DNA of 64,000 bases from Tribonema minus (taxonomy: Eukaryota; Sar; Xanthophyceae; Tribonematales; Tribonemataceae). Of this stretch, positions 5,402 to 48,300 are shown in pieces. The stretch covers positions 496,001-560,000 of the forward strand of contig JAFCMP010000523.1 in NCBI GenBank assembly GCA_017506865.1. Reading direction: 5' to 3'. Under the pieces are notes generated by a model, which saw nothing but the letters and a program-made list of their open reading frames with translations, was not told the DNA's origin and made no database searches. Positions within the stretch are counted from its first letter, which is position 1, and the number at the start of each line of letters is the position of its first letter. A program made the translations under genes and the position numbers.

Positions 5402-8400
5402 CAGTGCAAGGCCTTAAGGAGGGAGGCAATAAGAGACTGCTGAACCGATGGCAGACAACAAGAGCACATCCATTACCCATTGCAAGGCTGGGCGCTCCAG
5501 CAGTATCATCTGCAGAAGTACTGACGTCCGCCGCTCAGCACTGCGCGCCGCTGCGGCCGCAGCCGGCGTCATTGACATCAGCGACAGCTCGAAACATGGC
5601 ACCGCGAGCCTGTGAGAACAGCAGCCCTTTCGCGCTCCAGCTCTTGAGCATGAAAGACTGCCATGCATCTGCTCACCAGTTTGTGCTGCGTCTGCGAGTG
5701 CGGCAGCGGCGCCGCGCGCATCGCGCACGACGCCCGCCGCCCCGTGCGCGCGCGCCGCCGCCGCCGCGCGCTTCCCCGCCACCTGCCGCTGCACCAGCGC
5801 CAGAGCGCGTGCTGCCTCGTCCCCCGCGGTGCTGCAGGTGCAGTGGTGGCATTGAGGGGGGATGTCAGTGGGACAAGGGGGGTGCCGTGGCCAGACATCT
5901 TCATTTCCACGGCCGCATGCGCGCACCGGCGTGGCACACGCACCTGACCAAGTTGCCTCGTAAGGCATCCCAGCACGAGCTTCTCATCACTGCTGCTCGG
6001 GTCTTAATGACGCCCATTTGTGTCGGATTGCGCACTCATTCCGGCCTGAGACCCCAGAGCGAGTCTCTCTGGCAATGCGCCCTTGTCCCCTTCAGCACTA
6101 TAACCACCTCCCCAACCCGTACTATGACACGCCGGACCTGATGGTATCACATCTCAGCCGTGCTGTAGCGCACTCATTGAGGTCAGACAGAACACGCAGC
6201 TGCCTCGCCAGTTATCTCAACATGTGTACTCTGAAGTTCAACAGGAACGCTGGGGCACGCACGCGCACCTGCCGGCGGCATCACTCTGGCTGCTGCGCCG
6301 CGCGGGTGGCGGCGGCAGGCCACGTGCGAACTCCGCAATGCGCGTTAGCAGCGCGTCGCAGCCGTCGCGTACGAGCTCGCGCTCCGTCGCCAGCAGCCGC
6401 TCGCCAGCCTCGCGCAGCGTGCCGAGCCGCACCTGCGGGGCGGGGGGGGGGGGGGGGGGGGCGCTGAGGTGAGCGGAGTTGAGCGCTGGGCAGGGAAAGG
6501 GGGAGTGCACAGGGACAGGGGGGGGGAGAGGGGCTGTTGATGCCGGGGATTGCTTGGGGCACAGGGGCGGGGGTGGGGGGGGAAGAGGGGCAAATTGGGG
6601 GAAGGGGGGTACAGAGGGGGGCAGCAGGGCTGAGGACTGCAGCTCGGCCAATATGATGCGTGCGGTGCGACTGGCATGCATGCAAGAGCAGACACGAGCA
6701 CTGACATGACACTGGCATGCATGCAAGAGCAGACACGAGCACTGACATGACACTGAGTTGTTGAGCACTGACCTGTAACTGTTTGAGGGCGGGCACGCTG
6801 TACGCGACTGGCGCGGCGGCGCCAGATGAAGCGGCGGCGGCGGCGGAGGTGGGTGCGGCAAACGCTGTGGCGACGTCAGTCGCGAGCGCGTCTCTGTACA
6901 CGGTGTAGACGGTGCCCTCTTCCAAGGCTCTCTGTGGAAGGGCGGCAGAGAGCGCATGCGGCGAGCGAAGTGAGTGCCTCCTGGGTGAGGCAGTGCGGTA
7001 GGTATTGCTGAGCATACATATATGCATACCTATATTAGCGCATGCAGTGTCGCGGGGCACACGCACTGCAGCGGTCTGGCTGTGTGTTCGTCTCCACGAA
7101 CGCACCATTGTGGGCAGTAATGGGGTCTGCCTGCAGCTGCTGTGCTCGCAGCGCCAGCGTGGCCGTTTGCAGTCGAAGCATCGACTTTGAGTCATGGGGA
7201 GAGTCACTTGCTTTGAGTCACGAGGAGCGTCACTGCTTGCTGTTGCTGTGCGGCGGCCACCGTTAGGTGCTGTAATTGCACACGTTGTGGCACCACTGCA
7301 CATGATTTAAAGGTCATCGTGACTTGCGGGCAGCCTGAGTGCTACAGCCGCTGACAACAGCGACTGAGCTTGTGTTTTTGCACTTTACAAAGCTGGCACG
7401 TACACTGGGCGCTTTACACAGCCGTCACTGAAGTAGGGTTAGGGCTGAGAGCTCATCAGACTTGCAGCTGGCGACTCCTCTACCAGTGCGAGGGCTAGGG
7501 TTAAACTCAGGATCACGGTGAGGTTAGGGCTTGGCACTTGCCTGCTCCGTGGCCAACAGATGTCGCACGTGCGCCAGCCAGTATTAGGGCTAGGGTTAGG
7601 GTTAGGTTCAGGCTGAGAGGTCAGATGTTGACAAGCGCACTTGCCTGCTCTGTGGCCAGCAGCTGCCGCACGCGCGCTAGCCAGTCTCGCGTTGGCACCC
7701 CCTCCACCGCCTCCCCCACCTGCAGCAGCGTGCGCGCAGACACGCGACGGCGCAGCGTGGAAAGTGTTGAGCGTTGACACTGCTGTTGATGAGCAGCTGT
7801 CCGTTTGCAGAAAGCGGTCCGATAGGGGCACTGCACAGTGACCTTGGCAGCGCCCCTCGTATGTTGTGTGTGTTGCCATTGTCACCAGGGCCGTTGTAGT
7901 CGGCGGCGCGTGCGCTAGCCAATGACGGTGAAAGCCGACCTCCGCCAGTGAACATTGCGTGCAGAAGCATGAGCTTGGCATACGCAAGAAGCATACCTAT
8001 GCACGCATGCAATCATACCTACCTACCTGTCTATTCATACGTCCCTAGCAACCTAAATACATACATACGTACATGTAGCTAGATGAACACATGCATACCA
8101 ATCTGCGCATATACCTGCATGCGAGCGTTCCTCCAGCACGGAGAGCCCCATATCGCCCTTCTCCTCACGTTAGCTCACATGTACCCGCATATACACGAAC
8201 AAAGTCATACATGCACAGAATGTAGCTCATACTGAACGTACACGAAATTATACCTACATACCCACCTACCTGTACATACATACACTATCCTTCCATTCCA
8301 GTACATACATGCATACATGCGCGGGTACATACCTCGCGCACAGACAGCTCCAGGTCGCCCTTTTCCTCCAACGCCTCCCAGCGTCTTTGCCGCTCTCTCT

Positions 8401-11400
8401 CCTGGCGTCGTGCCTCTTCTTCCAAGCGTCTCTGGCGATGACATGGGGTCATGAACAGGGCAGGCAGCGCAGCGCACTGACGTCATGCTCGAAGTACATG
8501 ATCGCAAGTGCCACCGTGTGGATGCCGCAGGCCATTGTTGCAGCGCAACAGTATCAACTGCAAGCGCGCGCGTGCACCATCCTGTGCTTCAACATGAATG
8601 TTGGATATACTTCAACTTGAAGTATTTCCAAAGTGCATCACTGTGCCGACCGCACGTGGGAACGGGCACCCGATGTAGCGTCAGCACGCGCGAGGATTTA
8701 TTATGTGCTGCGATGACGTGACTTTCAAGTGCCTGTGCCTGTGGCCTCCCTCCAGTGCTGCTCACAATGTGGCGTGTATGGGCGCCGACTGCAGCACCAT
8801 CGGTAGAGGCTTGGGAGTCCGGACGCAGACGTCAATGCGCAGAAGGCGCTGCGGTGGCAGCAAATCCACAATCACACTGTCCGACAACACCCAACTATAA
8901 GGGTGTCAGTGCAGCGTCACCGCTGCCCCCCCAAGTAGCCACATTTGCGGTGCCAAGTACACTTCAACGCGAGGCGTGCTGTCACGGGGTGGCGCTCTTT
9001 GAGCACATATAGCGGGCGCAAACGTCGGCGTCAGTGTGTGCGACGGCGCCGCCAACAAACGGCGCTGCGAAAAGAAGATGAGCACCGCCGTCTCTGGTGC
9101 TGCACTAGTCTGATGATTCAATGGTACGAACATGTGGGCACATGTAGCCAATGTGCATGCAAGACGCGTCACTGCGGGCCCTGACAGAGGCAGCGGCCAC
9201 AGTGCGTGTAACGAATGCACCTGAAGGCTGCATGAATACTTCTACTACTATGTGCATTGCACAAGCTTAGCATTGCACCGCGGCCGACCTGCAGCTGTCG
9301 CCGCTCCTTTTCCGCTGCCTCCGACTGCTTCGCCTTTTCTTCCCATGTGACCTGCCAGTGCATACAGTAGACCATCAGCGGACAATGAATGGTGCTGTTG
9401 AGTAACGCAGCAAGACAGAGTGCTGCAGCAGACAATGTGCAGGTCGACACATGCCCAATGGCATTATTCTGAAAAACAGCGCTTGTTGAAAGAAGACCTG
9501 AATTGGGCAGCATAGATTTGCGCACTCAACATTTGCTGTTGTCACGTGGTTTTTGTATGTACTCCGCAGAGCATACCTTCGGCATCAAGTCAAATCTACT
9601 TCAACTTCAGTTACCGCAGATGAAAACTTCAACTTCAAGTCACACTTGATTCAGCTCCGCGCGCAGAGCTCGCAAATTCAACATCAAGTCACCCGCTTCA
9701 ACTTCAAACTGTTCAACCTGACATCAAGAATGTCATCTGCGCACAAGTGCAGGCTCACCTTCATGGCGGCCTCCATGTCTGCAATCTGCTGCCGATAGCG
9801 CGCCTCAAATTCAGGGTCCGCGGCTGCGCCCCCCCCGCCCCCTCCCCCTCCGCCCCCCCCCCCCCCCCATCCCCCTGCGTTGCCAGCTTTGCGCGCAGTG
9901 CCCTGATCTCCTCCTCCAACCGCTCCACCTGCGCCGCTCACAAGGAAACAGGCGAACAGGCGAGGGTTTGCACCGGCAAGGGTGGGCATTGCAGCGAGTG
10001 AGAGTTGAGAGGTGCCGGCAAGCAGCGGTTTCCTTGGCTCGTCGGTTGCTCTGAATGGGCTGTGCACGCAGGCCATGCGAAATTGGCAGAGATTGCACGA
10101 CCCGTAAAACCTGCATGGCTGCCGGCCAAGTTGAGGTTTAACCAATGTGCATCACGGCAACTTCCCAAAAGCGGCCTGTCTGATGCGGAAATGCACACTT
10201 GGCATGACACTTGAACTTCCTCTTGAACTTCATCTGAGGTCCTCCCTCATGTGACCACTCCACCGACCACATCATACTTCACCTTGTCATGAGGCACTTC
10301 AAGTTGCACTTCATCACGTGCATACATACCCGGCTGGCCTCCTCGTTCTTGACATCGCGCAGCTGTATCGCCTTGGCGCGGCTCGCGTACTGCATGATAA
10401 ACTTCAAGTACTGCGCCATTGGTATTACCAGAAAACTTCCCCATAATTGATGCACCGGTAACGCCGGAAAATGGGGCCCCTGACTTGTTTGTTACCCCGG
10501 CTTCATGACATGTATACGTACCTGGCTGGCCTCCTCGTTCTTGACGGCGCGCAGCTGCACGCCTTGGCGCGGCTCGCGCACTGCATGATAAACTTCAAGG
10601 GATAAACTTCAAGTTTTACTTCATCATGTGCATACATACCTGGCTGGCCCCCTCGTTGTTGACGGTGCGCAGCTGTATCGCCTTGGCGCGGCTCGCGCAC
10701 TGCATGATAAACTTCAAGTGATAAACTTCAAGTATTACTTCATCATGTGCATACATACCTGACTGGCCTCCTCGTTCTTGACGGCGCGCAGCTGTATCGC
10801 CTTGGCGCGGCTCGCGTACTGCAGCGTGCTGAGCGTTTCCGCAAAGTTGCACGCGGCCGGTGAAACCGCCGCCAGCATCGCCGTGAGAGAGTTGCCGCCC
10901 AGCGACTCTTGCAGCACGCGCGTGAGCTTGCTGTTGCGGTAGGGCACGAAGACCTAGTTGCGCGCACGAGAGTAGGGCACGTGGTTGTGGCGTGGAGTTG
11001 CGATACCAAGGCCTGGTCGTGACGCGCGTATGCATAGTCTGCGCGTGATGGATACATGCATGCATGCACTAGGGGGTTGTCAAGATCAGTGGGATGCGCT
11101 CAATATCATGTGTAGCGTCAGCCGACGTAGCTGCAGAATGACTGCGTCGTCCCTGAATACAAGGATGCGGTCTGGGTCACCTGAACCACCAAAGTGACCC
11201 AACCGTTACCCAATGCTGCCTGGTAGGCCTACCCTTGGGTCTACCTGACCCTTGAAAGCGACCCAAACAGCGCACCAACGCCATTCACTAGTACACAAGT
11301 AGTCCTAGGAGGATGAACCCCCCCAGCATCCTAACAGTATGCAGACTAGGCCTAAACTGGGGCCTATCTGACCCGCGAAGGCGACTCAAACGGTGACCCA

Positions 11401-14400
11401 ACGCCATTACTACTTACTACATCGTCTTAGGTGGATGCTCAGCAGGCTATCATGGTTTACGTTATCCCTAACCCTACAAAAGATTGCCGCCGCGGCTCTC
11501 ACCTTTCTTCCCTTGGCCACCTCTACGAGGGCGTTGATGACATTGCCGAGCGCGCTGAGGGACTTGTTGATGTTGGCGCCCTCACGCAGGCGCGCGCCCG
11601 CCGCGCCCGTGCTCTTCTGGCGCTCGCTGCCGGCTAAGTCGACCTGCAGGGGGGGCAGATCACCGTATATACATGACAAACACATTACAGCATTGTCCGC
11701 ATATACATGTACTTCTATGTATACTGTCAAGTGCATGCAAATGAACCTGTCTGGGGGCTACTATGCATGTATGACAAACATACTGTATTACACGCATGCA
11801 TGTATGTACACTGTCGCGGTCATCTGGATGAAACTGCCTAGGGGGAAACTGTGCCATGGGAGAGGGCACAATGGTCAACTTCAAGTTGAAGCCATACTTT
11901 CTATGTGGTGACTGCCGCTCAAACTCATAGACCACGAACATGGCGTGGCGACGATTGTGACAAATGAAACACCTGCTTAAAGAGATTGCCGCAGTCGCAC
12001 AGAAATACAACTTAAACCGAATTGCAGTCGGTTGTCACGCAGCAGAGTGCATTCAAGACACGCACTGAGCAAGCACTTCGAATGTTATATCAGGGGGCCC
12101 TTGAGTTGTACACACCAAGCGTCGTGCGCAAAGTCAGAAGCACCCTGCTGAGGCAGCCTGCAGTTGTCTAACCGTGACCACCACCCCTGACCGTAACCCT
12201 AACCCCAACCCTAACCCAACCTCAACCCTAACCCTAACCCTAACCCTAGCCCTAACCCTAACCCTAACCCTAACCCTTGTCAGCAGGATGAGATGTAAAC
12301 ACCACCGCCAGTCATCACCAGGTCCAACCAGACTGCATCCCGCACTCCACTGGTGCAGAACAGGGCAATTCAAATGCTTGTTATCGGGCCTCAGAGGCGG
12401 TATCGATGCAACAAGATGCATGGAGAGTCACCTCACCAAGTTGAGCTTGGCGAAGGTGCTGCGCGCGGCGTCCGAGGCATCGCGCTGGTGCAGCTTTACG
12501 CTGAGCACACTGTGGCTGCGGCTGCTGGTGTCGTTCATGGCGGTGCTGCCCACGGTGCGGCTGGCCATGCCCTGCGGCGACGCCCGGATTTCATTGAAAG
12601 CGGTAATGGGGTCAAGGTTACATTATGTTGGCTTGAGGGATTAGATAACGTTGATAGCAGTAATTATGTCAAAATTACCTTACGTTGGCCTGAGGTACCA
12701 GATAAGGGTTACGGAAAAGCAATAACATTGATCATGGCCGTGCTGCCCACGGTGCGGCTGGCCATGCCCTGCGGCGGCACCAGCATATGTTGGTATCAGC
12801 TCTTAGATCAGGGTTACAGAAACCGATCATACATTGATATTAACGGTTAGGCTATGCTGATGTAAACCGAACCGCACTGATCAGTTGCATGTCCCAGTGG
12901 CAATCGACACCAAATTTTGCAATGACTTCAGCCGTGTGCACGACATTGGCGCCCAAGGCTCGGTATCGAGCTGACTTGTCCATGAGGTTGAGGATAGGCC
13001 AGTGGACGTTGCTAAATCTGAGGACGCTCAAACACGAGAGCATAAAGGTACATCGCACGCTTCGTCTCATACTAAACCAACTCCATGCGCTGATGCAGTA
13101 CGGCGCAAACACACTTGACGTTGAAGTTGAACTCGAGCCCTCCGCCAGCGGCCACCGCATCTCTGAATACGGACTGTATATCGTCATGGCGCCTTTGTGA
13201 CAGTCAGATGCACTTTGCATCCCGTGCGAACTGCGATTTGAGCACGGCGATTGATTGAGACATCGCAGCGGCCTTGGATTCGTTGAGCATCGTCCTGTGG
13301 TGAGCACTGCCACCCAGCCGCCCACGCTTGTTGGTGGCGTGGGCGCGGTCGTGTAGCACTCATACGAGGCATAGCCATGCACCGGCTACTTTGACATACA
13401 GATCAAGTCTGCAGGCCGTACAGCAATGCCGTCGCCTACATGTCGCTGCTGCCGTCAGACGCGCACCACGGCGATGCAAAGCATACGTATGAACAGTAAT
13501 CGTTAGCAAAGTATTGTAGGTACAACATAAACAGACCCTCAGACTCATGTTACCGCCAGCACGCTTGCTCCCGCACCGAGCCACATGACATTTTCAATCC
13601 CATGTGCGCAGTGCTCGGTCGAGAAAGTTCAACTGGCCTTGAAAGCCTGGCATCAGCGCTGAACATCATCAGAGGGGCACACGTGAGCAGCGGTTCTCAC
13701 ACACCTGGTCAATCAGCGCCTGAAGCTTTTTCGGCGTATCCACCACCATCTCCTGCAGCCCCTTCACATAAATGCCCAGCACCGTGTGCTCCCTGATCTC
13801 CAGCCCCGCCCCCTTGTTCTTGCGGTTGTCCGGGTCCAACAGATCGTACACCACCTGCACATAGCAAATGATAGCGAATGGCAACATCAATCATGCTGCA
13901 GCGCAGGACATGCGCACTCAATTCAACAGGAGTCGTGGTGCACACATGATAGTCAAGTTGTTGAGGAGGGCCACGTGCGTGCTGTTGGCAACTGTTAGAA
14001 GCCATACATAGCCATCTGCGGTCAGCTGCCACGGCGCCTTTTTCCGCGCACGGCGCTCACAATGCACATGCAGTATGAACGCGCTCCCTAACTTGTCGTT
14101 GAATGACACGAGACCAGTGGCATGGGACCACACATGGCACATTGAGCCCGGCGGCCGCCTCTAGGCAACGCAAGCTGTGTGCGCATATTCACTCACTCAC
14201 TCACTCATCCAGTTACTCACGCACCTCATTGTAGATCTCAAAGTAGCTGCAAGTGACCAGGAAGTGGATGTCGGGGTTGGCGGCCGTTTCCGCGCCGACG
14301 CGCGCAAAGAGCGCCTCGTTCATGCGCGGTATGATCCCCGCGAGTTCGCCGTCCGCCCCCCCCTGCACCCCCTGCATGCTGAAGGTCTTTCCGCTGCCGG

Positions 14401-15194: not shown

Positions 15195-15330
15195 ATATCA
15201 TGCAAGAATGATTTGGTGCAACGGAGAAGTAAAATCTGGCGGTTTCACGTCATCTGAAAACTTCAAGCTGAAGTGGTGCTGCGGGGTCCGTGGATCCAAA
15301 GAACTCGAGTGCACTAGTGCTGTGGCGGTG
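15195..15330. promoter_or_regulatory. short bidirectional promoter, kinesin / DUF819 protein
   Basis: Only 136 bp separate the two divergent start codons. It contains CACGTCA (15246-15252), the reverse of TGACGTG, a bZIP/CRE-like site, and a CTTCAAGCTGAAGT inverted motif. I see no clear TATA box. Promoter function is inferred from the head-to-head layout. Confidence 0.45.
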
Positions 15331-18300
15331 ATGACAGATCGGATGAGGGGAGCTCGCGTCAGATGCAGTTTGGGGCTGGCCCTGCTGCTGGTGCAGCAAG
15401 GCAACAGCTTCTCGGGACAGATCCAGCGAAATAGTGTCGCAGCACGATCGAGATGTCCTGCTGATGCGTGCTTTCGCCCTTGCCTGCGGCAGCGACCATA
15501 TGACAGTGCCATCGGCGCTGCCACGGTTAATCGCAGACGACATAGCCGGAGCAGCACCACCCTCAGCGGAGCGGCGATGGCTGCCATAGCTGCAGCACCT
15601 GCCATCCCCCTAGCAACAGCTGCAGCAGCGGTGGCTCGCAGGCTGGCGTTCGTGCCAGTGGCGATGCACAGCCAGACCTGGTACCTGTGGACTTTCCTCA
15701 TGTGGGCCTCCAGCTTCGGGCTCTGGAGCGAGAACACAAAGTGGGGAGCAGCACTGAGTAGCCCGCTGGTGACGATGCTCATCACCATAACAGCGTGCAA
15801 CATCGGGGTGCTGCCGACGGCCTCCCCCGTCTACACCTGCGTCAACAAGGTGTGCAAACGTTCCGCATATGCTGCAATCTATCAGCAGGAGATCAATTTG
15901 CTCTTCTCACCGCCATGCTGCGCCCGCATGCGCACTTCACACTGCTCTTCTTGCCGCCTCTTTACAATTTGACATTCTGAACGCATGTCCTGATGACGCG
16001 CCACCTCTGCAGTACCTGGTGCCGCTGGCGGTGCCGCTGCTGCTGTATGACGCGGACCTCAAGCGTGTCATGAAGTACTCGGGGACGCTCATGGCGTGCT
16101 TCATGCTGGGCGCCGTTGGCACAGTGCTCGGCACTGTTGTGGCGGCCAAGCTTGTGCCACTGGGGATGGGAGCGGATGGCTGGAAGGTATGTCAACACTC
16201 TGGTGTGCAATGCATGCGCAGGCACGTGCACCGGCGTGTGGTCGTGCACTCTACACCAAGTGCCCGTGTACTTGGAAACGTGGATGTGGTGTGCGATGGC
16301 CAGGTGTCATGGACAAGACGTGAGGAAAGAGCTCTGCAGTGCATGGAGTGTATGTTGTTTGGATAGCCGTGAGCTTCTGATGTCAATGCATCATGAGTCT
16401 TTGTGTTGTTTAGACCGCTGTGTTGGCAGGTCGACGCCATGCACGTTTTGATGGTTTCAGGTTGATGACTTTGCTGTTGGTGATGGTGGCGATGACAGTA
16501 ACCGCTGCAATTCATGCGTCAGTGTTAGGTCAGGCCTGGAATATGTCTGGCGTTCGGCTCCTTTAGCAGGCCACTTGCTGTATGCTGAGATCTGAGACAG
16601 CCAAACCCCTAAAGCGCTTACAAATTCTCTGGCAGCTGCAGGTTTGGGTTAGGGTTAGGGTTAGGGTCAGGCTCCAGATCACGAGGCATTTCTGCGCCCG
16701 TCTGCCCCTTGGGTTGCATTTACATACGTAACGCAATGCAGATCCCCATTGGCTGCCCTGTGACAACTGACGCTCATTATGCACCTCAAGAATGCTCTGA
16801 CCAATTCTGTCCGCAGATTGCGGCGGCTCTGGCATCGCGGCACATCGGCGGCGCGGTGAACTACGTGGCGGTTGCCGAGACGCTCAGCATGTCTGCAGGT
16901 GAGCGCTGACGCGGTCATCGATGCTCAGAAAGTCCGCAGGCCGGCAGAGTGTCGGGCTATGAGCATTGATGTCATTTTTGCAATTGGCATGGCTGCCGCG
17001 TGATTGGGCAGGCGATGGCGCTGGCTCTCGTGGCGCCACGGTGTGCTCTTGCACTGCCACCATGCAACCAATTTGCATCAGGTGCGACAGTTTGCAGCTC
17101 GCCGCTCGTCCGTCAAGGGTCAGCACGATGCCGTGCAGTAGCCGTTGCCATTCATCACACGCAGCGTTGCGTGCACGTTCAAGTCTGGCTTGCACGGCCG
17201 CTGACCACGCCCCACGGCGGCGCGTTCTTGTGTTGAATTCATGCATGCATGAATGAATCGCTGCTACTGGCAACCGCCACACCCGACTCTGGCGCGGATC
17301 ACTGCCTCAGCATCAGCGCTGACGCACAGCAACGTGCACCGGCTCATGCCCACCCCAACAAACAAGCATTGACTGCTGTGGATATGGTGGCACTGTTTGA
17401 CTCGCGGCCGATTGCCGCAGCAGCGGCGAACACGATCATTGGTGGAAGGCATCCAATCAGACCGCTCACCACAGCTCGTCACCTAGACTAGAGCTCTACG
17501 ACCTTTTGATTCGTTTCCAACCAAACTCTCGCCGTGCCGGTCGCAGAGGCGGTGGTGGCAGGACTCGCGGCCGACAACCTCGTCGTCGCCCTCTACTTCG
17601 CCTTCCTCTTCTACATGGCCAAGGGGGACGCGGGCACCGCCGCGGGGGGCGGCGACGCCCCTGAAACCCCCTCAGGGGGGGGCGGCGAGGGGGACATGGG
17701 GCCCCCCACGGTGGACCCTGCGAGTCCGCTCGTGGGCAAGGATGGCCTAGCGTATGCGCTAGCGGCGGGCTGCGCGCTGACGTTCGCGGGCAACGCCATC
17801 GCGGCGGGTCCGCTGCGCGGCGCCATCAGCGGCATCCCCATCACGTCGCTGCTGACGGTCGCGGCGGCGTCGGCGTTCCCCAAGGTGGGCGCGTTGCCGG
17901 TCCGGTGGTCGCCGCCGTGTGCGTCAGGCTGCTGCGCCGCGTTTGCCATGCTGCGAACGCATGCCTCCCCCACACACGCTGCCGCGCCAAACACACATCT
18001 CACGCCACGCAACCGCTGCTGCCGCCGCCGCAGGTGCTCGCGCCGCTGGGCGTCGCCGGCGCAAAACATAGAAGTACTTTGAAGTACAGTCTCCTCAACT
18101 TCCCAAAGCCATCACAAGCGCGTCTTGCTTGCGCACCGCTGCTTCTTGCGCGTGAGCCTCCTTCGCACACGCTGCCGCGCTGAACACACATCTCACGCCA
18201 CGAAACTGCCACCGCCGCCACCGCCGCTGCTGCCGCCGCCGCCGCCGCAGGTGCTCGCGCCGCTGGGCGTCGCCGGCGCACAGGTCGGCGTCCTCTTCAT

Positions 18301-18637: not shown

Positions 18638-20373
18638 GTATGATGGTGCGCGAATGGATTCTGTTGCAGGGGCGGGGTTTACGAGGGGCGTGGTGGCAGC
18701 TACTGGGTGCACTCTGGCGGGTGGTTTCTCGAGGATCGTCTTGTCAGCGGCTGGCGGTGAGAGTATGCGCCGCTGCGCAGCGTTGCTGGCTATGAGTGCA
18801 TACGCATGGCGATGCTGCATGACGCACGCTGTGTGAAAGCTCTCGGGCACTTCGCATCATGGCTTCAGGAGCCCGCGCACGTCTCCTGTGTCGCGCTGCT
18901 GCGGCAAGTCAGTGAGCCACCCGCCCAGGTCCCGTTTTGACCACGATGTCCTTTTACAATGTGTGGTTATTTACTGCCGGTGATGGCACGCTCGCGCGCC
19001 CCCTTCAGTCCTGGCGCGGCGTCGCTTTGTTTATTCTGCTGCGTAGGGCACAATCTGACAAGCCATGCACTCTGAATGCATTGCCAATCATAACAACTGC
19101 TGGAAGGTCCTGCCCCCTTGCACAGATTGTGCTTCTCGGGTTCTGGTGTGTGTCATGAAGACAAGTTGCGCTTGCACTCAAGCCGTTGAAAGGAGCCACA
19201 GCTCAAAGGTGCGCACGGTGCTGGCGTATGCCTTGTGTGACATCCAACCAAGTGTGTGATGACGGATGCCAGGGCAATGAACACGGCATAGCATCCAGGG
19301 GGGAGATGCCATCTGGCAACGTTGTTTACAATTGTAAACAAGTGATCGTCAATGTGCATGGAGGCACTGCGTCACAATGTACATGTAGATTCTGTTGACA
19401 AGCTTTTGTTAAGCATCAACCATTTGAGCTTGTTCGTGCCCTGAGCGAGAAATCAACAACAAGCACCAGTTGCGCAAGAGCCAGCGGACAGAAATCCATA
19501 TTGTGTGCTCAGCGACATGTGGTATTATGCGTAATGCATGGTGCTGTTATTCTGTGCCTGTCAGGCAGCAGCCTGCACAGCAGGCAGAACTTCAAGTTTT
19601 GCTTTGAACTTCAAGTATCGCTGTGACGCTACCACTCGCGGAACCGTTACCTCAAGACATGAAGACAGCGCTAATCTCTACTTCGACATGCAGGAAGAAT
19701 CATTCTCATCAATGAATGAGCTGTGTGAAAGACGAAAGAGGGGTATCACCCCTCCATCTTGCCACAATTGAAACATCATCCAAACGAGGGCATGCAGTGC
19801 CCGCGGGGGTAGGGGGGGGGGAAGGGGGGGGGGGGGGGGGGCACCCAGGGTGCATCGCTGCTCTAACTGGTGCGATGAACACCAGGCGCAATGCAGCGCC
19901 GCCGCCGCCATCATCCACGGAGAGGAATGGATGTCTGTAGTGCCTCGCCAGCAGTTCGTGCTTTGGATACACCTGTACTGCTGCTCAGGATACACCTGAA
20001 CTGTGGCGCGGTCAAATGGTGCCATCTAGGCGAGCCTGGGGCGAGAAGGAAACGAAACACAGAGAGTCAGCGATAAACGTAACCGCATTTGAGCAGCGCT
20101 GGTCGACGATTGCGCACGTGCCATGACAAATTGTCACCAGGCGTGTACTGCTACTTCAACTGGTTCACTACTTCAACTTGTCGCCGTGCTTCAGCGCGCT
20201 GACATCACGCAGCACAACGCACACCTCAGTCGGCCACGCACCGCCACTCACCGCGCTGAGTGCTCAGGGCTGCGCGACGATGATGGTGTACTGCTACTTC
20301 AACTGGTCATCTACTTCAACTCCTCGCCGCACACCTCAAACGGCGACGCGACGCCACTCACCGTGCTAAGTGC
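18638..20373. other. intergenic region between convergent DUF819 and catalase genes
   Basis: I see no supported gene. It holds a long G-run (19808-19842), TTCAAG motifs (19588-19618, 20155-20175, 20298-20330) and, near the catalase end, a duplicated copy of the catalase stop-codon region (20255-20290). Reading frames here are short and lack recognisable motifs. Confidence 0.6.
20255..20290 (-). repeat. ghost copy of the catalase stop-codon region
   Basis: The minus strand reads IIVAQP then TGA, a copy of the catalase C-terminus IIAAQP then TGA at 20391-20374. Matching flanks (CACTCACCG..CTGAGTGCTCAGG) show a tandem unit of about 116 bp. Confidence 0.8.
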
Positions 20374-23300
20374 TCAGGGCTGCGCGGCGATGATGGCGTT
20401 GACCTTGGTCTTGACCATGTCGGAGTAGCGCTGGTCGACCTTCGCCAGCACACCATACATGCGATCGCGGATGAAGCTCTGCGCGCCGCTCAGGCTCTTG
20501 GCCATGGCGCTGGTGAGGCGGTCGCGCTGGCCATCGTCCATCTGCCACACGCAATTTTGTTCAACAAGTGAGACAAACAGACAAGAGCACAGTGCGAGAA
20601 GTCATGAGCCCGGCAGTGTCGATTCTGTCCTGAACATGCGTGTACACTTGTGTGAAGGCGGTCAGCTCAGGCTCTTGGCCATGGCGCTGGTGAGGCGATC
20701 GCGTTGGCCATCGTCCATCTGCGACGTACACACGTAGAGATAAGAGCACAATGCGAGGGGTCGTGAACATGAAAATGAATGCAGACGTTCGCGTTTTAAC
20801 TTGAGCAGCAGGCGCAGGGGCATGATAACTCTGTCACTCACACTTGTGAAGCGCGCGGCGGCCTGCGTGTAGATGTCGGTGGTAGTGTCGTAGCGGCCGA
20901 TATTGCACAAGTCAGGGTGCAATGCATCATACTTCTGTTTCAAAAAGACACAGCGGCCACGACAAAAACCCCAACACTCACACTGGTGAAGCGCGCGGTG
21001 GCCTGCGTGTAGATGTCGGTGGTCGTGTCGTAACGGCCGATCGTGCACGAGCCGGAGATCTTGTCGTTGTAGTCCCACGCCGCCTTGGGGTCCATCACAG
21101 GGCCTCCGAAGCTGTTGGGGAAGTAGTTGGGGGCACCGCCCTGCGCCATGGCAGCACGGCATGTTCCACATACTTCAAGTAGTGAAGTAGTACACTTGAG
21201 GTAGTACACAGTGTGTTCCACATGGTGAAGTAGTAGAGTTCTCAAGCTGACTGAAGACATGAGTCTGCAGCTCGTTGCAAGGTGGCATGCACATGCTTGC
21301 CGTGACTGCTGATTGCAGGGATAAAGTGCAAGCATTCCAGTGGACTACGCAATGCACGTGGTCAGTGTATCGATAAGAGTAGCCAAGAAAGTACTGAACA
21401 TAAGCATGCATGTTGCTCAGCAATTGCCTTTGGGAGCGCGTGCACTAGCGCCCACGCATTCCAGAGCTCGAGGAGTGGGACCAGAGCCAATTAGTGGACA
21501 TGTTCAGCAGCAAGGCACCTGTTCCATCACGCGCCACAAGGATGTGACTGCACGGCATGACTGACAAGCTGCACTGCAAGCATGGACGCCTACGCCACGC
21601 CCACGCGACTGGCGTCAATGCGACGTCACCGACCGGCAACAAGCAACCATGTGCAATACTTCAACAGACGGCGTCATGGAGAGTCACACAATGAAGTTAG
21701 CAGCATCGCAGCAGTTTGTGTCAGGACCACGCTGCATCTTGCAGCAGAACTGGCCAGCAGGGCTTGTAATACTTGAAGCGTGGGCGTCACCATGGAGCGT
21801 CACCTGTTGAAGAATCGCACGCACCTGGTTGTCAAACAGCTGGAAGCCGTCCCTCTCGTAGTTCGTCACGGGGAACTTGGCGGGGCGGTTGACAGGGAGC
21901 TGCTCAAAGTTGGGGCCGAGGCGGTGCCTGAATGCATACACACAAAAACCGCAGCAGAAACGGTTACAGACCGTTGCACACACAGAGCCTGCAGTATGCG
22001 AGAACAGCATGGCAGATGGCCAAGGGTCGTGTGGCGGCATGTGGTCTCGACCCGTACCCTGAACCCTGCTTCTACTGTGAAAACGCATTCTCTTCCTGCG
22101 TACTGGTGACACACTGGTGCAAAGATGCAGTGCAATAGTTGAACCGCCGCCACCCACCATGCATGCACATGGCAGCAGCGCAGAACCTGCCTGTCCGTAA
22201 CTTACATGCTGTACACACTACACAATCCGATCGCGTGCGAGCAGGGTACCCATGCATTATTGTGGTACAGTAGCTGAACAGACGCTGCAGAGGATGTGTG
22301 TGCACAGGTGCAGGGGCAGATTACTTGTGTGTATCTTGCCACCTGAACGGATGCTGCGGGAAATGCGTGTACGAATCATCGCACACCTTCACAAACGCGA
22401 TCGTGTAGGAGCAGGGGTACCCATGCATACCGTGGTAGCCGACCAGGCGCTACAAACAATTTGAAACAAGTGTGCGCATCGGAGCAGATGCTGTGGAAAG
22501 TGCGTGCGCATGGGGGCAGGGGCAGCACACCTGTGCGTATCTTGGTAGCTGAACAGGCGCCCCTGCAGCAGGCGGTCCGGCGAGGGCTCTATGCCGGGGA
22601 TCATGTTAGAAGGTGCAAAGGCCACGCTCTCCACGTCCTGGAAGTAGTTGGTGGGATTCTTGTCCAGCTTGAAGGTGCCGACCTGACGCGGCCGATGGAA
22701 GGGAGGACATGATTATCAGCGGCCAACGAAGTGAAAGCATGCTTATTAGTGGCATGTTGGAGGGCACAAAGGCAACGCTCTCCACGTCCTGAAAGTAGTT
22801 GGTGGGGTTCTTGTCCAGCTTGAAGGTCCCCACCTGACGCAGCCAATGGATGGGGAGGAAATGCTTATTAGCGGTCAATGGAAGTGAAAGCATGGTTATT
22901 AGAGGCATGTTGAAGGGCGCAAAGGCCACGCTCTCCACATCCTGGAAGTAGTCAGTGGCGTTCTTGTCCAGCTTGAAGGTGCCCACCTGACGCAGCCAAT
23001 GGAAGCGAGGACATGCTCATTTGTGGTGTACTTCTGAAGTGCTGTCGTGCTTTACTGGTGCATGACAGCTTGAAGGGCCCAACCTGATGCGGAAGCGATG
23101 GGGTCACACGGCAGCGAGGCCCATATAGATATTTACTTCTATATTGCTGGGTCAAAACTAGGCACTGGCGCTGTCTTGTGCGCCTTCCCGGCGAGCAGGT
23201 GCAACGTGATACTGCAGAGGCACTGGCAAAGACGACACTTGTGTAACACGGACAGGCTTCAAATCGTACGTACTGGAGGCAACTGGCTGCACTGGATGCG

Positions 23301-33326: not shown

Positions 33327-33359
<33 letters not shown>

Positions 33360-39300: not shown

Positions 39301-42300
39301 CATGGCACATTGGCGTATGCCGGCGCCTAATCAACGTCTCGTGAGACAAGCCCTTTACTTCCTGCTCAGAAGTGTTTGCATCATGACACACGACGCTGCG
39401 CGTAAATGAATGAATGGCACCGCGCAACATTATGTGATCAGAGGCTTGCTCCACGCCGTCGCGTCACGGGCCTGCAGCGCCGCCGGCATTGCGGGTGGTG
39501 TCGTTGTGGCAGTGAGCAGCGATGGCTATGCGCTCCAGGCAACGGGTCATGACATGGCATTGTGCTGGGGCGAGACGATGATCTAGTCAGCAGCAGCGCT
39601 CAATACATTAAATGTTGAAGACGAATTGCCGACCATCTTCGAAGGTACTTCAAATATGTGCTTTGGAGTATGTGCTTCAAGACGTGCATCAAGCTGGTCA
39701 TGGCACTGGCGCGCAGGGTGTGACACGCCAGTCATCACGTGACGTGCCTCGGATTGGATCACTGCATCAGATGGGTGCAGTCATCGCTATTGAAGTAACT
39801 GTTGAAGTTGAAGTTGGGCAGGCTGTAGTTTATGAGCCGCAGTCTTCACAACACGTGTGCGCAGCATGCCTCGCGCAGCGAAAGGGAATACGCGTCCCAT
39901 GCCTCTGCAGCTTCACTCCTTGCTTGCTGCAAAGGTTGCTCGCCAGTGGTCCACAATGATGCGGGCCGCACGCTGCATTTGACATGGGCACAAGCAGCAA
40001 AGATGACAGTTTCTATCAGAAGATGCCTGAGGGATACAGATGTATGAGTGCCTTGAAGTACATTAAATGCCAGAGCAGGACGATGGCCATGACATTTTCA
40101 ATAAGCACACACAGAGACCTACTTGGCGGTATGCCTTTCAATACCCCATGGTCTCCAGTCTTTGAAGTTGCCGCTACAAAATGCACCATTCCCCATGGCG
40201 TCCAGCCTTGCAGATGCCTCCCGCCGCCCTCCACCCCCGTCGTGTTGCTCACCATCAGACTCAAGGAGCAGCTTTGATGCACTTAGTTCATCTAAAGCAG
40301 AACCAAAAATGCCAGTGCTTAAAAAAGTCACACACAGAAATACGTTTCCTCAACATACGCCTGTCAGGAGTCCGATCTCCAGTCTTCAAAGTTGCCCTCC
40401 GCCGCTACCAAACGCATCATTCCCCATGGCATCGCGCTGATGCTGCCAGCCTCTCTCACGCCCCCTCATGCTCAACATTAGGCTGGATATGGTGCGGAGC
40501 AGCTCAAGGATCTCCTCAAGGTGTTCTTCCAGGAGCTCATGGGCACGCTCACGGACTACGGCGGCGACGTCATGCGCCTCGCAGGCGATGCGCTGATTGC
40601 CATCTTCCATGACGGCAACAAGCCCGGCGCCGGTACGCAATCGTCGTACTAGTTTGGTGCTTTATACAACACAATCAGGCAGTTGACACCATTAGGTACT
40701 GCGTGCATCGTAACGTGAACGTCTGCAACTTATGGTGGCAACGTCATGCGCTTCGCGGGCGATGCATCTTCCACGACGGCAACAAGCCCGGCGCCGGTAC
40801 GCATTTGGTGCATGTAGCTTGATGCTTCGCACGGCATAATCACGCTGTTGACACCATGAATACAGTGCAAGAAAGTGACGTGCGCGTCTGTCTGTGCTCG
40901 TCTTTGACGTCTGGTTCGCTGTGGGTTTTACGTTCGTGCGCTGTGGTGTTCGGACGCGGAGATCACACGCTTGTGTAGCTTGGGCATGTATTCGCATCCG
41001 GAGCGGCGCAACATGGGTCCTGCTGCATCACAGCAAGATGGCCAGTGGCCGTGTAGCGGCGTCGATGCATGCAGTGAGCCTACCGCTAGAGTTACAACGT
41101 GCGCCAGACATCAGGCTTACACTTCGCAGCGGTCGCAGAATCGCTGTCGGCGATGAGCGCCAACGCAGGCAGTGCGTCAGATGTATACCTTCTGCAGCTT
41201 AACAACTGTTTTTCTATGCTGTCACTTCCAGTTGGCATGCTCACTTCTATCCCCTCTGCCGGCAACCAGACCAGATACTCGCTGCGCTTACCGAGACGCG
41301 GGCGGCAGCGTCGGACGCGTGCCTGCTGCAGCGCGCCGCGCCCGTGTCGATGCTGTTGCTGCCATTTGCCGCGCTCACTCCTCTGGATGGGGCCCCCTTC
41401 TCTCTGCTGCCAGCTAGACCAGGACTCCTCCCCGCCCTCACAGAGTCGCTGTCGCCGCCATGCAATCATGCAGGCGGGGCGCCAGACGCGCGCCTGCTGC
41501 AGCGCGCCGTGTTTGCGCCGCTGCCGGCGCTGCCAGCTGCCGCGCTGCCAAAGTCCTTCTAGCGCTCCGTGACGCTTACGAAACGATTGTGCCACCGTTG
41601 TCCACTGCCAATGCCATGTATGTGCTGCCGCAGGTGGGGTGCCGGATGCGCGCCTGCTGCAGCGCGCGGCGCTCGTGTCCATGCTGGCGCTGCGGCGCCT
41701 GGACGGCCGCGTCATCCAGGGGCTCTCGCTGCATCTGCATGTCGCCGTCGGCGTCGGGCCCGTGGACCTGTGAGTGCGGCGCGTCACCGCCATTTTCAGC
41801 TTCACCATTGAAGTTTTGAAGTAACTTCACCGTTGAAGTTTCCAAATCACACCATTGAACATTTGAAGTAGTGCAAGCAGTCTCGCTGGTGAAGCAAGCA
41901 TCGGTGACCCGGCTCTGGTGAGCACGTGAGAGTGGTCGATGCAGCACACGTGCGCGTTGTTGCGGGCACCTCGCCCTGTGCACCTGTGTCTCACTGTTGT
42001 AGTTTGTTTGCGATGGAGTGGGAGGTGGCAGTCAGCAGGGGTGCACACACCGAAACCGTCTCAACGAAACACATCAAGCACACTCTACAAACAAAACGCC
42101 TGTCCATGCAGTACCCTAGGAACTTTATTGGTGCGGCCTGTGAGCGTCACCACTTTCAGTTGTGATCGCAGGCGTCAGTGCTCGGCTGGACTCGGCCTGC
42201 CGCCAGGAGGCGCGCTCAGTTCTGTTTTGCGTTCTTTCTTTACTGGCATCCTCGTAATTACAGCATGAAGAGTTGTGCCGTCCCCCCATGGTATGCACTG

Positions 42301-45300
42301 GGCACTGAAACGCCTCGCGTTACGCTGCGCTGTGCCTGTTGATTGCAGCTACGTGGTGGGAGACAGGCGCGTCGGCTGGCACTACGTCGCGGCCGGGGAG
42401 CCCTTCAAGAGCCTCGACACCGCGCTGGACGACGGCAAGGCCGGCGAAATGGTGGTGAGTCCCTCTCAACTTCAACTGTCTGATGTGGCGAAATGGTGGT
42501 GAGTCCCTCTCAACTTCAACGATATGGTACGCGGGAGGGTGCGGCTCCAGGCCTCACTTCCTTGAACCAAATTCCACCTGTGGCGCTGCGGTCACCCTGA
42601 CCCTCACCCTGACCCTACGCCCAAGCGCTGTCCTTGCCACAGAGCTGACTGACAGTCCTCACCCTCGCCGGCAGTTGCGCTAGACCGCGGTAGTGAGCTA
42701 CGCTGCGAGCGCGCACCATGTCTCTTGAACATGACATCTGTTTCAGCGCTGAGCTCGCACTCGCTGCGATGCTATGCAACGCCGACGCCACGCCACGCCA
42801 CGGTAGCTGCAGCCTCCGTATGAGCACTGACAGTCACTGCCAGCTGCAACAGTCGCCGGTGTGAGCGGTGGACTGGGGGGGAGGGGTGGGCACGCAGGCG
42901 GCGAAGCAGGTGGCGAGAGCGTCCACAAGGCTCAGCAAGCTGGCTGGGCTGTTCGTCGCAACCAGTGCTGGTGGCCGCGCAGTTCTGCCCGACTCGGCGG
43001 TTGCGTTTTCCCGAGCCCCAATCAGCCTGCACCGGTGCAACCTTCTGTAAGTCGAAGCTGAACACATATCCGAGTACTTTTAAAATGCAGTACTTCGAAG
43101 TACCTATACGGGATATAATAGTCAAATACAGGATGTACTTGCGCGAGCACAGCAACGCTCAAGCGGCGGGCCCCCATGACAACCCCCCAGCGCAGTGGCC
43201 ATGTAAGCACTCACAACCACGCTACGCGAGGCGCAATTCACACAACTGCGTTGCCTCATAGTCACCTTATCCGTGTCATTCCTCGTTGCGCCCCCCCGTG
43301 CGCCACCAGGTGAGCCCCGCGCTGTGGGCAGGCATGCAGGGGGGCAAACAGTCACATTCTTCATGTCATTTCCCCATCATTGCGCTCACCCCCTGTGCCC
43401 CCCCAGGTGAGCGTCGCGCTGAGGGCAGGCATGCAGGGGGCTTAATCGTTTTTCATGCCATTTCCCCTCGTCGCACTCACGCCGCCAGGTGAGCCCCGCG
43501 CTGTGGGCAGGCTTATTAGTCACTTTCTTTATGTCATTTCCCCTCACTGCGCTCACCCCCCATGCCTCCCCAGGTGAGCCCCGCGCTGTGGGCAGGCATG
43601 CAGGGGGCGCAGCAGGTCATGCAGGCCTCCGCATCCTCCAACGACTATGACAGTGACCCCGAGTGGGAGGGCAGCCAGCCGTCGCCGCGCGACGCGGAGG
43701 ATGACGCGGCTGACAAGGGGCAGCTTGACCGGGAAGCGCTCAGGTGGGTGGCGACATAACTGTGGTCCTTGGGCGGCTGACCCTAGCCTGTATACCTACC
43801 CCATGATGCTGATTTTTAGAGGGGCAGCTGGTGAGGCAGGGGGCTCTGAGGCGCGGTCGCCTCGGTGTTGCGATGTGCAGCTTGCTGTGACACAGGATCT
43901 CTGCATGCAAACATTTTCCTTTGTAGTCGTCAAGAACCTGAGTTTTGCTTTAATGCGCAGCTCTGAGAAATTGCTACATATCTTGTGTGAGCCTGAGCGC
44001 TGATCCCTAGGTGCATACATACGCCCTGGTGATGCTCAACTGCCTGAGCCATGCTGCACTGCGCGCGCAGGTCGTGCTACGCGTGGCGCGCGCGCACGCT
44101 GCCCAGCGGCAACATCATGCTGGACTCGAGCGCCACCGCAGAAGCGCTAGAGGTGAGCGTTGCTGCATTAGGGCCACACGCGTCAGGCGAGCACGTAGCT
44201 CAAAGTGCCCTGTGTAGAGAGTTCTTGAGAGCTGATTCCCACGTCTCATCTGGCAGCGTGTAGCCCGGCACCTGAGGCACCGCAGAGCAGCCTGTCGCTA
44301 GTAGGTCAACCTGGGTGCCTTTGCAAATGTCGCAACCCGCTTTCATGCCAGAGGTGAGCGCTCCTGAGAACACGCGCATACGAATGCGGGGACGTAGGGT
44401 GAGGTGCATGCGGGCGGTGCTGAGAGCTGATTGCCACGTGTCATATGCCAGCGTGTGAGCAGGCACATGAAGCCCGGAGCGGCCTGTTGCTATGTGCGTC
44501 AAAGCAGCGCTGCATATGGTGGCACCCGTTTTCCCGCACCACGTTTCAGATACAGCAATACCTTTAAAATAGCTTGAATAGCAGCGTATCAATGGTGTCA
44601 AGTGGGCTGCGGCACGGCTACTGAGCACTGATGCCTCGCCGGACCCACACGGCCCGTCGGCATTGCGCGGTGCAGTCATGCCTCGCGAGCATTGTCGCAC
44701 TCCAAAAGCAGCAGCGATACCATCGCCGGGGTAAGAGTGAAGCTTTTAGTGAGGTCCAGAATAAAGTGTAGGGCTCTCGGTACTGTCAGGCTCAATATAA
44801 CAGGGTTAGGATTACAGTCAAAGGTAGTAAACAGCGTTATGGTAAGGGTCACGGTCAGGGTCACCCGCCTGACGCTGCTGACGCTCACTTCTGCACCGCC
44901 GCCGCCGCCGCAGCGCGTGCTTCACCTGGACGCCGCAGAGGAGCGGTTGCGCGGCAACGACTACGCAGGCGCCGCGGCCGCCGCTGCTGCAGCAGTGCTC
45001 CGCAAGGCGGACGTGCTGGAGCGCGTGGTACGCCTGTTTACGCTGCCGCCGATCCTGTATGCGTGCGAGGCCGAAACTTCCGGCTGGTGAGTGTGATTCA
45101 TTGTGTGTAGCTCACGTGCGCGTGCAGATTTACTTGCAGAGTCTAGAACCGCCTGTGAACATGGGGCAGATGCAGATGGCAGGTGCAGCTCACAATACGG
45201 CACTGTACCCTTGCGTGTCGTGCGTATTGTATTTGCGACACGCTCTCGTGCATCGCAGATCGCAAGCACAGCGATAGACATTGTGTGCTCTTGTGCCCAA

Positions 45301-48300
45301 GACAACAACCCCTTTTTCCGCACTTCAAGTTCGGCAGTGTTGGTGTATGCATGCCATAGTACTGGTGCCAGCTTCAGGCAGTTTTGCGGCGCGAAGCATC
45401 TTACTATTCTACATGCCAATATTTCATGGGGAATGGACCCATGCTCCATCAAGGTCGTCTGCACGTGAACATGTTCGTGTTAAGCTATGTTGTCAGCATG
45501 TTGTGGTTCCATTCCGTGAGGGACCTCGCACTGGCGGTGCACGTCGCTTGCACCCCATGGGTTACCGAAAAGGCTGACTGTACTCAGAGTTGCTCAGAGA
45601 GTCATGAGTGCAACTGAGGGGGCATCAACGACAGCTCCGCAACGGCTGTTTTGCACTGACCGATTTCTGGCCTTGCTACCATCTCAGAGGGCACTGTGCC
45701 AGCTGTCGTAGGACCGTAGTTCAACTATGCTCACAAATGCTTGCAAGGCAACATTGCTCAGAGTCATACAACTAAACTGCCATCAAGGGCACCCATCAAC
45801 GACAAGGTCGGCGATTTGCGTACAAAGTATAGGCTAGTTGCTACCTCAGAGGGCACAGCATATAGCGTCGGCACAACAGCAATCGCAGGTATGCTCACAA
45901 TACTCTTGTGCGCTGTGCACATACCCTGTGCTCTCTCCCTGGCAGGTTCGCAGAGCTACACAGGGTGGTGGTGATATTTGTCAACATTACGCTGGATCAC
46001 AAGCCGGACCTGGCTTCGATGCAGCGAGTTTTTGGTAAGCACAAGGCTGGAGCTGGTGCTGTTGGAGCGCATGCAACCGCGTCCATGCTGTGCCGCCATG
46101 TTGTGCCATTTCTAAAGTGTACCTCGATTATAATGTTCAACAATCTGCAGCGACGGTACACGATGTGTATGCTGCAGCTTCAGCGTACGCTTACTGTGAC
46201 TGCGACCAACGGCGGCACTGGACCCAATGCGTCTCTGAGGTCAAACAACAACCGTAGGACCTTCTAGCTGCAGGCGACTGCGGAGCGTTCTTCAACTTGC
46301 AGTAGAAGTGCCGCATCGACCGCAAGTCATGCCACGGAGGTTTCCTCAAATTCGTGCGCGCTCACACGCCGCTTGCGCCCGCCGCTTGCGCCCGCCGCGT
46401 CGCCACCGCCGCTGCCGCCGCTGCGCAGCCGTCCTGCAAGGGACGATGCGCGCGTACCACGGCGTCATCAAGGAGTTCAGCCAGGACGACAAGGTGAGCC
46501 CGTGCACACATGCACTTGTGTACCATTTGTCCATTGCGGGCATCTGGCACAATCAGTGTCTGGAGAGTACGGTACATCTGCTGAGCACTGCAGCAGCATG
46601 GGCGGATGGAAGTGCTGTCATAGCCCTGAGCTGACCTCGTGCAGTTCGCCAGGTGCCTCGGGGCTCGCGCGCAGCGACGGTGGGCACTGCGCGGCAGACC
46701 TTTTGAGCACTGCTGCTAACCTTGCTGATGCGTGGCTGGCGCCGCTTGTCTACTGCTCCACGCTGCCTCATCGCTGCCCCTCACTTCCCCTCACTGCGTG
46801 CGTGGATACTGCATGTGCTGTGCTTACCTGCGTCGCTACTGGCTACGCGCACGCGCACGCGGTAGCTCACGCCATTCCGCCCGCTGCCTGACTTCCCCTC
46901 GCTGCTCACGGTGCACCGCTACCGTGTCACCTGTGCGACAGGGCATTGTCATGGTGGGGGCCATGGGGCTGCCCCCGGTAGCAGGCGCTAACCCTGCAGT
47001 ACGCGCCTGTTCGGCAGCGCTCCGCATGGTCGCGGGGCTGGACAGGATTGGCGCGCACGCGTACGTGGGCATCAGCATGGGACAGGTGGGGGTGTTTTCA
47101 GTTGCTTCAAAGCGGGGGATTGGGTGGTGTTGGTGGTTTAGTTAAAGCACGCACTGGCTTGTGTCTGGTGAAACATATGTAGTGATGTATTGGGCGATGT
47201 GCAGCATCGGCGGCACAGGCGAAGCACTCAAAGGCTCATATGTTGGCTTCATAGTTTGATGTGTATTGGTTGCACAGCAGCTCCGCGCAGCAGCTGCGCC
47301 AGCTGTAGCGCGGGCAGATGCTTAACGTGTGGTCAGAAGCCCTTGGCCGGGAACTCAGCAGCCCCACAGAAATGCAGTCACGCGCAGGCACTGGTATCGG
47401 ATGTCGATACAGTTTTGTAGATGGACTTCTGGGGCAGGAAGTCTTCGCTGCCTTCCCTGCTCATCAGCCGATCACAGCGGCGCATGCCAGCATATATACA
47501 TCGTCCCAAATGTCTCCAATTGAAAGCATCGCACCGCACACCAACCCGAGCATAATGTCTCACTTGCAGCGGCTGACACGACCCCCGCGCGCAGGTCTTC
47601 ACCGCGAGCATCGGCAGCGCCCGGCGCGAGTTTGGCATGTTCGGCGACGTGGTCAACACGGCCGCACGCCTCATGGGCGCCGGCAAGAAGGACGCCTCGC
47701 TGGTCGCTGCCGCAGCAGCGGCAGCGCAGCATCAGCGGCGGCACAGCGCCACGTCCAAGGTGAGATGCAGGAACCGGATCGCTTCAACTTGTTGCTCCAA
47801 CTTGAAGTTGACATCCTGCTGGTCGTTGTGCCGCAGCTGGTGCTGCGCTGCACCAAGTTGCTTCAAGTTGAAGTTGACACCCCGCTGATCGCTGCCGCCG
47901 CGACGGCGGCGCAGCACCAGCGGCGGCACAGCGCCACTTCCAACTCCAAGGTCACGTCGTTCATTGCCGAGAACACTGAGAAAAACAGAACCAGATCAAG
48001 AGACGATATATACAATTGTTGATGTTGTGCAATATATACATCATGGTACGCCTGTGCGTGTGTGCCCGTGTGCTCTGCGGCCGCGAGATGCTGCTCTGGA
48101 GGCGGTGTTGTTGCTTGCGCTTGCATCGGCTCCAGTGCACTCGCAAGTGGCAAGGTACTGCTGCGGATACACAACGAGCGCAAAGATGGCGCGGGTAGCG
48201 CTGGGCAGCCCGTTGCACCCTATTGTCTAAAGACTCTGCACCGAATGCTTGATTCGCATCTGAAGCAGGTGCACGCAAGCTCCTCAAGGCTGACGAAGGC

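Follow-up and report, generated by a model that had tools for sequence, protein, structure and literature searches.

Why do introns in the xanthophycean alga Tribonema minus carry repeated copies of the ends of their own neighbouring exons? The question is raised by a 64,000-nucleotide stretch of its genome (assembly GCA_017506865.1, contig JAFCMP010000523.1, positions 496,001 to 560,000 of the forward strand), here called the window, which contains a kinesin, a DUF819, a catalase and a putative cyclase gene. The original prediction, made from the letters of the window, was that exon ends are tandemly duplicated together with their splice site and adjoining intron at a dozen or more places in these four genes. 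Such a copy of an exon border is here called a ghost. Analysis of the window and of further genes of the same genome showed that exon edges, including the splice signal, are repeatedly duplicated into the neighbouring introns, lengthening them, and that the part of a copy taken from the exon looks younger than the adjacent intron sequence.

The source assembly comprises 158.2 Mb in 554 contigs. Kinesin and catalase exons were located genome-wide by Pfam profiles (132 kinesin and 28 catalase matches), and 30 genomic stretches were taken. Exon models were built by a spliced protein-to-DNA aligner with six single-exon kinesin matches from the same genome as queries, and repeats were not used to define exons; the model of the window catalase was assembled from exon ends read by eye. 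The 32 gene models include 26 multi-exon genes with 126 introns (median 626 nt) and 252 borders, and border position was tested against the exon models of the window catalase, the window kinesin and 24 genes elsewhere. GT, GC and AG intron ends were imposed by the aligner; the wider consensus, such as G at donor position 5 (97/126) and C preceding the acceptor AG (118/126), came out of the data, although both of these positions were also bonus-scored by it. Fourteen of the 152 exons are shorter than 25 nt and doubtful, and none of these bears a ghost.

Self-comparison of the window revealed many local direct duplications with periods of mostly ~90-430 bases, and Tandem Repeats Finder independently reported arrays at 10514-10823 and 22602-23021. 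The 26 multi-exon genes contain direct pairs of three kinds, 99 exon-intron, 56 intron-intron and 4 exon-exon, and no inverted pair. Of the exon-intron pairs, 94 cross a splice border (92 a single border, 2 a whole exon) and five cross none. Removal of redundant, short, whole-exon and non-crossing pairs left 84 distinct ghosts, 44 of donors and 40 of acceptors, at 44 of the 252 borders and in 17 of the 26 genes; 24 of the ghost-bearing borders have at least two. Donor copies lie downstream and acceptor copies upstream, in the intron adjoining the copied border; the seven acceptor pairs tallied as downstream are overlapping arrays in which the copy starts upstream. At 40 bits, 42 of 192 border segments of 60 bases are directly repeated in the intron next to them, compared with 2 of 150 that match the intron across the exon (Fisher 1.4e-9), 2 of 102 exon interiors that match an adjacent intron (Fisher 6e-7), and 0 of 192 that match one size-matched intron of another gene each. 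The same control search gave no inverted copies of border segments. The copies thus lie on the side that had been anticipated for a duplication spanning the junction.

These counts depend on a complexity filter. A first version, based on distinct 4-mers, lost long blocks and made copies appear more exon-limited, and was replaced; it had given 77 exon-intron, 52 intron-intron, 1 exon-exon and 2 inverted pairs, and 228 direct against 4 inverted local pairs over 341 kb. The final filter removed 104 low-complexity pairs, among them the window kinesin ghost at 12733, and of the window genes the catalase alone contributes to the 84 ghosts. Repeats commonly cause assembly error, and the copies could be an artefact of this kind. 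That is scarcely credible here: divergence of the exon parts is graded over 0-30%, and the link with exon borders recurs in 17 of 26 genes spread over many contigs.

Contrary to the original prediction as it stood, duplication is not a peculiarity of borders. A direct copy in the same intron was found for 167 of 1309 intron-interior 60-mers, and the odds of duplication at borders exceed those in intron interiors by just 1.9 times at 40 bits and 2.9 times at 50; the slower decay expected for copies of a conserved exon would account for part of this excess. The anticipated contrast was borne out only by half: duplications are rare inside exons, which selection predicts, and abundant within introns as they are at borders. 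The duplication process is general to introns. Of 97,261 intron bases, 19,840 (20%) fall in detected duplications, and the median intron length is 1007 nt with ghosts (n = 35) versus 564 nt without (n = 91, p 9e-7), in agreement with the predicted lengthening. By eye, the motif CTTCAAC/GTTGAAG recurs in introns of L010, L025, L031 and L032 (gene models elsewhere in the genome) and beside ghosts. Telomere-like TTAGGG/CCCTAA runs also occur in genic regions, at 12185-12277 and 3797-3844 of the window and beside ghosts in L018 and L032.

What does a ghost consist of? The copied exon edge is typically ~40-70 nt long and 0.70-1.00 identical to the live one, covering the foreseen range from near identical to barely readable. 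In 62 of the 84 ghosts, the intron flanks align in register with those of the live border better than 95% of random placements in the same gene. This homology indicates that most ghosts are old tandem units, not random insertions, and together with their uniform orientation it bears out tandem duplication across the junction. The original prediction missed two properties: the diverged spacers that set many ghosts apart from the live border, and exon parts that do not follow the age of their flanks. Five whole introns that were read contain arrays whose spacers resemble one another. An early idea, purely exon-limited insertion of ghosts, was weakened by this in-register homology of the spacers.

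A related account is fresh exon-limited copying, in which short exon edges enter introns by RNA-templated or break-filler insertion and old tandem copies are not refreshed. It would fit the six youngest border blocks (at least 93% identical), with 41-66 exon bases and just 3-17 intron bases at 59-425 nt from the live copy; of six purely intronic, ghost-free pairs at 90.6% or above, by contrast, three have no spacer. However, 21 of the 26 best-preserved ghosts have in-register homologous flanks, which random insertion would not give, and this account is quite unlikely.

The splice signals of ghosts have largely survived, as the prediction of competing splice sites required. GT is kept in 35 of 44 donor ghosts and AG in 33 of 40 acceptor ghosts, or 68 of 84 in total; flank divergence would predict a fraction of 0.42, exon-part divergence one of 0.80. 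Median donor scores are 7.5 bits for ghosts, 9.6 for live sites and 0.3 for random intronic GT; the acceptor scores are 6.5, 7.0 and, for random intronic AG, 1.4 bits. The live site is the outermost copy, and a ghost usually has one splice site; at least one exception, in L031, has an acceptor-like CACAG in front of it as well. Ghosts may escape recognition as exons because their single site usually lacks a partner, and splicing here probably works by recognition across exons (exon definition). In Volvox and Chlamydomonas, introns are shorter, averaging 491 and 373 bp, and intron definition is thought to apply, according to one report (PMC4378016). In L032, at about 7309-7454 of the gene span, a 25-base mini-intron stands between a ghost donor and a ghost acceptor that belongs to the next exon, an arrangement which looks like a formerly short intron duplicated with both exon edges.

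The central observation concerns the relation of the exon part to its flank. Flank identity averages 0.61-0.65 whichever class of exon identity is taken, from below 0.78 to above 0.93; the 26 ghosts with exon identity of at least 0.93 have a mean flank identity of 0.63. Exon-part and flank identity are uncorrelated (rho 0.00), and restricting the set to a single ghost per border (n = 44) gives a rho of -0.09. In one ghost of L025 exon 1, all 66 exon bases are identical, whereas 22 mismatches occur in 99 aligned flank bases. Between pairs of ghosts, identity is 0.82 in the exon part versus 0.63 in the intron part, and the exon part is the higher in 56 of 61 pairs. The divergence of exon parts appears to reflect real differences in age, because it is overdispersed (2.08, p 3e-8) and codon positions 1 and 2 covary with position 3 (rho 0.35).

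Could one clock produce this pattern? One-clock simulations, including the detection filter, small and large indels and an intron rate of 1-8 times the exon rate in 8 settings, gave mean rho values of 0.42-0.71, and none of 400 resamples per setting reached a value as low as that observed. With uniform ages, values of 0.75-0.78 came out of an earlier, incomplete simulation. With one ghost per border or shorter flanks, the observed values were -0.13 to 0.12 against 0.32-0.59 expected, the weakest P being 0.023. As simulated, a single divergence clock over exon and intron parts does not describe these ghosts; the similarity of the copied part is decoupled from flank age, as is expected of gene conversion. 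The best reading, in our view, is that small tandem duplications arise and that gene conversion afterwards refreshes their exon parts; we give it about even chances.

The main rival is plain tandem duplication followed by neutral decay, with a selected live exon, introns that decay unevenly and are rich in indels, and a detection bias, so that no conversion is needed. In its favour, fourfold and intron substitution rates agree where the alignment is trustworthy. GC-to-AT changes, tallied by hand, amount to 0.075, 0.063 and 0.099 for codon positions 1, 2 and 3, so that ghosts look nearly neutral, and some are clock-like, such as those of L017 exon 2 (0.926 in the exon, 0.80 in the flank) and window catalase exon 7 (0.889 and 0.83). 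Nevertheless, it leaves unexplained both the missing correlation, which stays absent when each border is represented by a single ghost or when the flanks are short, and the low flank identity of the best-preserved ghosts; it is a possible account, though a doubtful one.

Several results weigh against conversion. The flanks of 22 of the 84 ghosts show no detectable in-register homology, the exon part is not better preserved in 5 of the 61 ghost pairs, and ghosts are unevenly spread, with 38 of 84 in three genes. For well-aligned flanks (z of at least 5, n = 31), divergence is 59/298 = 0.198 at fourfold sites and 461/2777 = 0.166 in introns, and mean divergence needs no conversion because these rates are alike. 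A difference in mean exon and intron rates was for this reason dropped as an argument, and the case for conversion rests on the decoupling and the overdispersion. Gapped alignments conceal mismatches, unrelated pairs giving 0.274 under the same scoring. Ghosts were detected by exon similarity, which biases their exon parts upward and was simulated roughly, and the simulations contain no intron-to-intron rate variation, which would make the expected rho smaller. The six arrays inspected and aligned showed no clear conversion tract. Closer ghosts are weakly more alike (rho 0.25, p 0.02), a weak effect that suits conversion and simple age order equally.

Selection might instead keep ghosts as alternative or decoy splice sites or as poison exons. 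Their splice-site scores are indeed near those of live sites, and in 57 ghosts differences amount to 0.143 at third positions versus 0.044 and 0.045 at the others, with 0.040 nonsynonymous versus 0.199 synonymous differences per site. By a hand tally, however, the third-position excess is largely synonymous change in the live exon together with base composition, and the case for protein-level selection on ghosts was weakened once these were considered. Moreover, 11 of the 57 well-preserved ghosts are frameshifted and two in-frame stop codons occur, and the best-preserved class shows low divergence at fourfold sites too (21/270), a finding for which protein selection cannot account. Selection on ghosts is thus unlikely.

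The proposed course of conversion-refreshed duplication has four steps. First, as observed, introns contain many small same-orientation local duplications, and those spanning an exon-intron border have copied the exon edge and splice signal into the adjoining intron; they would probably arise from staggered breaks that are filled in and joined. Second, the outermost copy, joined to the exon body, would keep being spliced, so that the duplications would be tolerated. Third, and observed for most ghosts, the flanks of the units are still in register but have diverged, mostly to ~60% identity, and the units multiply into arrays. Finally, the live exon would sometimes refresh the exon part of a ghost by short-tract gene conversion, and this refreshing would keep exon part and splice signal alike whatever the age of the flank. 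In gene conversion and concerted evolution, tandem copies stay alike despite their age; here, the likeness is limited to the exon-derived part of decaying intronic copies. Tentatively, live exons may continually overwrite their own decayed ghosts, so that competing splice sites are kept young and exon ends are told apart by the exon body, not by site strength.

Within the window (Table 1), local direct copies were found at most of the places originally named. The catalase sites 20255, 20665, 20836, 22757 and 24262 have clear local copies of 61-276 columns at 87-95%, whereas 22253, 22455 and 23085 are weak when tested alone (34.6-40.1 bits). In the kinesin, copies are clear at 7542, 10330-10699 (four copies, 90-94%) and 12733. 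The exon end taken as the live copy of the 10330 array continues into exon 10795-10953, and the array lies outside the modelled kinesin exons. The DUF819 site 18034 has a copy of 125 columns at 76%, and in the gene that we take to be a cyclase from a motif, 40733, 43310-43511 and 47883 have clear local copies. Position 41560, weak when tested alone, falls at the margin of a set of related blocks (41298-41693). The prediction failed at 42484, which has no direct copy nearby (the best is 10 nt), and only weak matches were found at 8115 and 41166 (31.9 and 25.6 bits). Among ten open reading frames searched against Pfam, only that at 15791-16363 reached the cut-off, as DUF819, with a sub-threshold SdpA match in the same frame; the other nine had no match at E 0.01. 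PF00211 has no match in the window and does not mark the cyclase.

Table 1. Exons, ghosts and other duplicated blocks of the window (window positions).
Positions	Strand	Feature	Remark
7534..7685	-	Duplicated 49-nt block, kinesin region, 88%	Candidate border
10738..10823	-	Kinesin exon end with GTATGT donor	Taken as live copy; donor ~10759 by eye
10296-10409, 10501-10599, 10606-10719	-	Three further copies of that exon end and donor, 90-92%	
12437..12571	-	Kinesin exon, live acceptor 12571	Exon model
12732..12776	-	Acceptor ghost of exon 12437-12571, adjoining intron, 45 nt, 98%	Outside the 84-ghost set
17963..18280	+	Duplication beside DUF819 gene, 17963-18063 and 18156-18280	Candidate border
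20218..20289	-	Copy of 20328-20399 (stop-codon region and GTGAGT motif), 72 nt, 87.5%	Putative 3'UTR border
20375..20541	-	Catalase last coding exon, live acceptor 20541	Exon model
20665..20725	-	61-nt acceptor ghost from the last coding exon, 95%	Junction 20718
20835..20911	-	77-nt donor ghost from exon 20982-21140, 91%	Junction 20842
20982..21140	-	Catalase exon, live donor 20982	Exon model
22531..22682	-	Catalase exon, live acceptor 22682	Exon model
22753..23027	-	Two tandem acceptor ghosts of exon 22531-22682, period ~151	Junctions 22833 and 22986
24265..24331	-	67-nt donor ghost from exon 24437-24619, 87%	Frameshifted on reading; junction 24270
24437..24619	-	Catalase exon, live donor 24437	Exon model
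26166..26385	.	Tandem duplication confined to a catalase intron, 110 nt, 98%, without spacer	Same type of event, not at a border
27083..27215	-	Complete in-frame copy of exon 27477-27612, PF00199 54.2 bits	Ends approximate
27477..27612	-	Catalase exon, PF00199 59.0 bits	Exon model and profile
40557..40857	+ (by reading)	Duplicated block, putative cyclase gene, 137 columns, 76%	Candidate border
43259..43608	.	Several local copies around GGTGAGC motifs	Candidate border
47691..47943	.	Duplicated 68-nt block, 87%	Candidate border

The catalase gene also contains a whole duplicated exon, 27083-27215 and 27477-27612. Each copy is an open stretch between AG and GT, the former being one codon shorter, and from their sequence they are a candidate pair of mutually exclusive exons. 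As a general account of the duplications, mutually exclusive exons do not serve, a whole exon being spanned in 2 of the 99 exon-intron pairs. The catalase on contig C76 (L024) shares 7 of 11 exon lengths with the window gene, and that on C522 (L023) is laid out differently. Contig C76 has two catalase genes, 11426-16547 and 45722-50843, in opposite orientation and with the same exon scores; the compared scores make this pair a candidate recent inverted duplication or assembly feature. In six kinesin genes (L003-L008), much of the motor domain lies within a single open stretch, and their relatives are many-introned.

How do the ghosts compare with known systems? No description of border ghosts of this kind was found in the literature searched, which mostly excludes subscription journals. 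Intron gain by tandem duplication in potato (PMC4974935) likewise involves a local tandem copy of coding sequence that carries splice motifs and in part turns into intron. In that case the new intron arises inside an exon, whereas in Tribonema minus introns already present grow longer and it is the border that is copied, at 44 of 252 borders. End joining of breaks yields small tandem duplications (PMC8355091, which cites Vaughn and Bennetzen 2014 on rice) that are similarly short, local and in the same orientation, but are described without splice-border context or later exon-only similarity, and the lesion proposed here is inferred. Lipomyces stwintrons (PMC7138796) share duplicated donor elements within the intron that are able to compete in splicing; those duplications are of 4-7 nt, whereas here ~40-70 nt of exon edge are copied, at donors and acceptors. 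Introners (PMC9860276) also make intron sequence grow fast but are dispersed, whereas the copies here are local and gene-specific. The similar intron sequence across unrelated genes that marks introners was found for none of the 192 border segments, each compared with one intron of another gene, and a genome search with the 601-base window segment 20000-20600, in which very common words were skipped, returned only the segment itself and its local copy. The Haematococcus genome is 47.3% repeats, mostly short and in tandem (PMC7617258). New in Tribonema minus is that most ghosts have diverged in-register flanks and an exon identity independent of flank identity.

What do these ghosts mean for intron evolution? 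Each marks a duplication at a known border, which makes this genome a natural, countable system for intron lengthening. Dozens of near-real splice sites in graded decay stand beside true ones and provide tests of exon and intron definition. If the gene conversion reading is true, exon sequence reaches introns by concerted evolution, which would distort both divergence dating and splice-site prediction.

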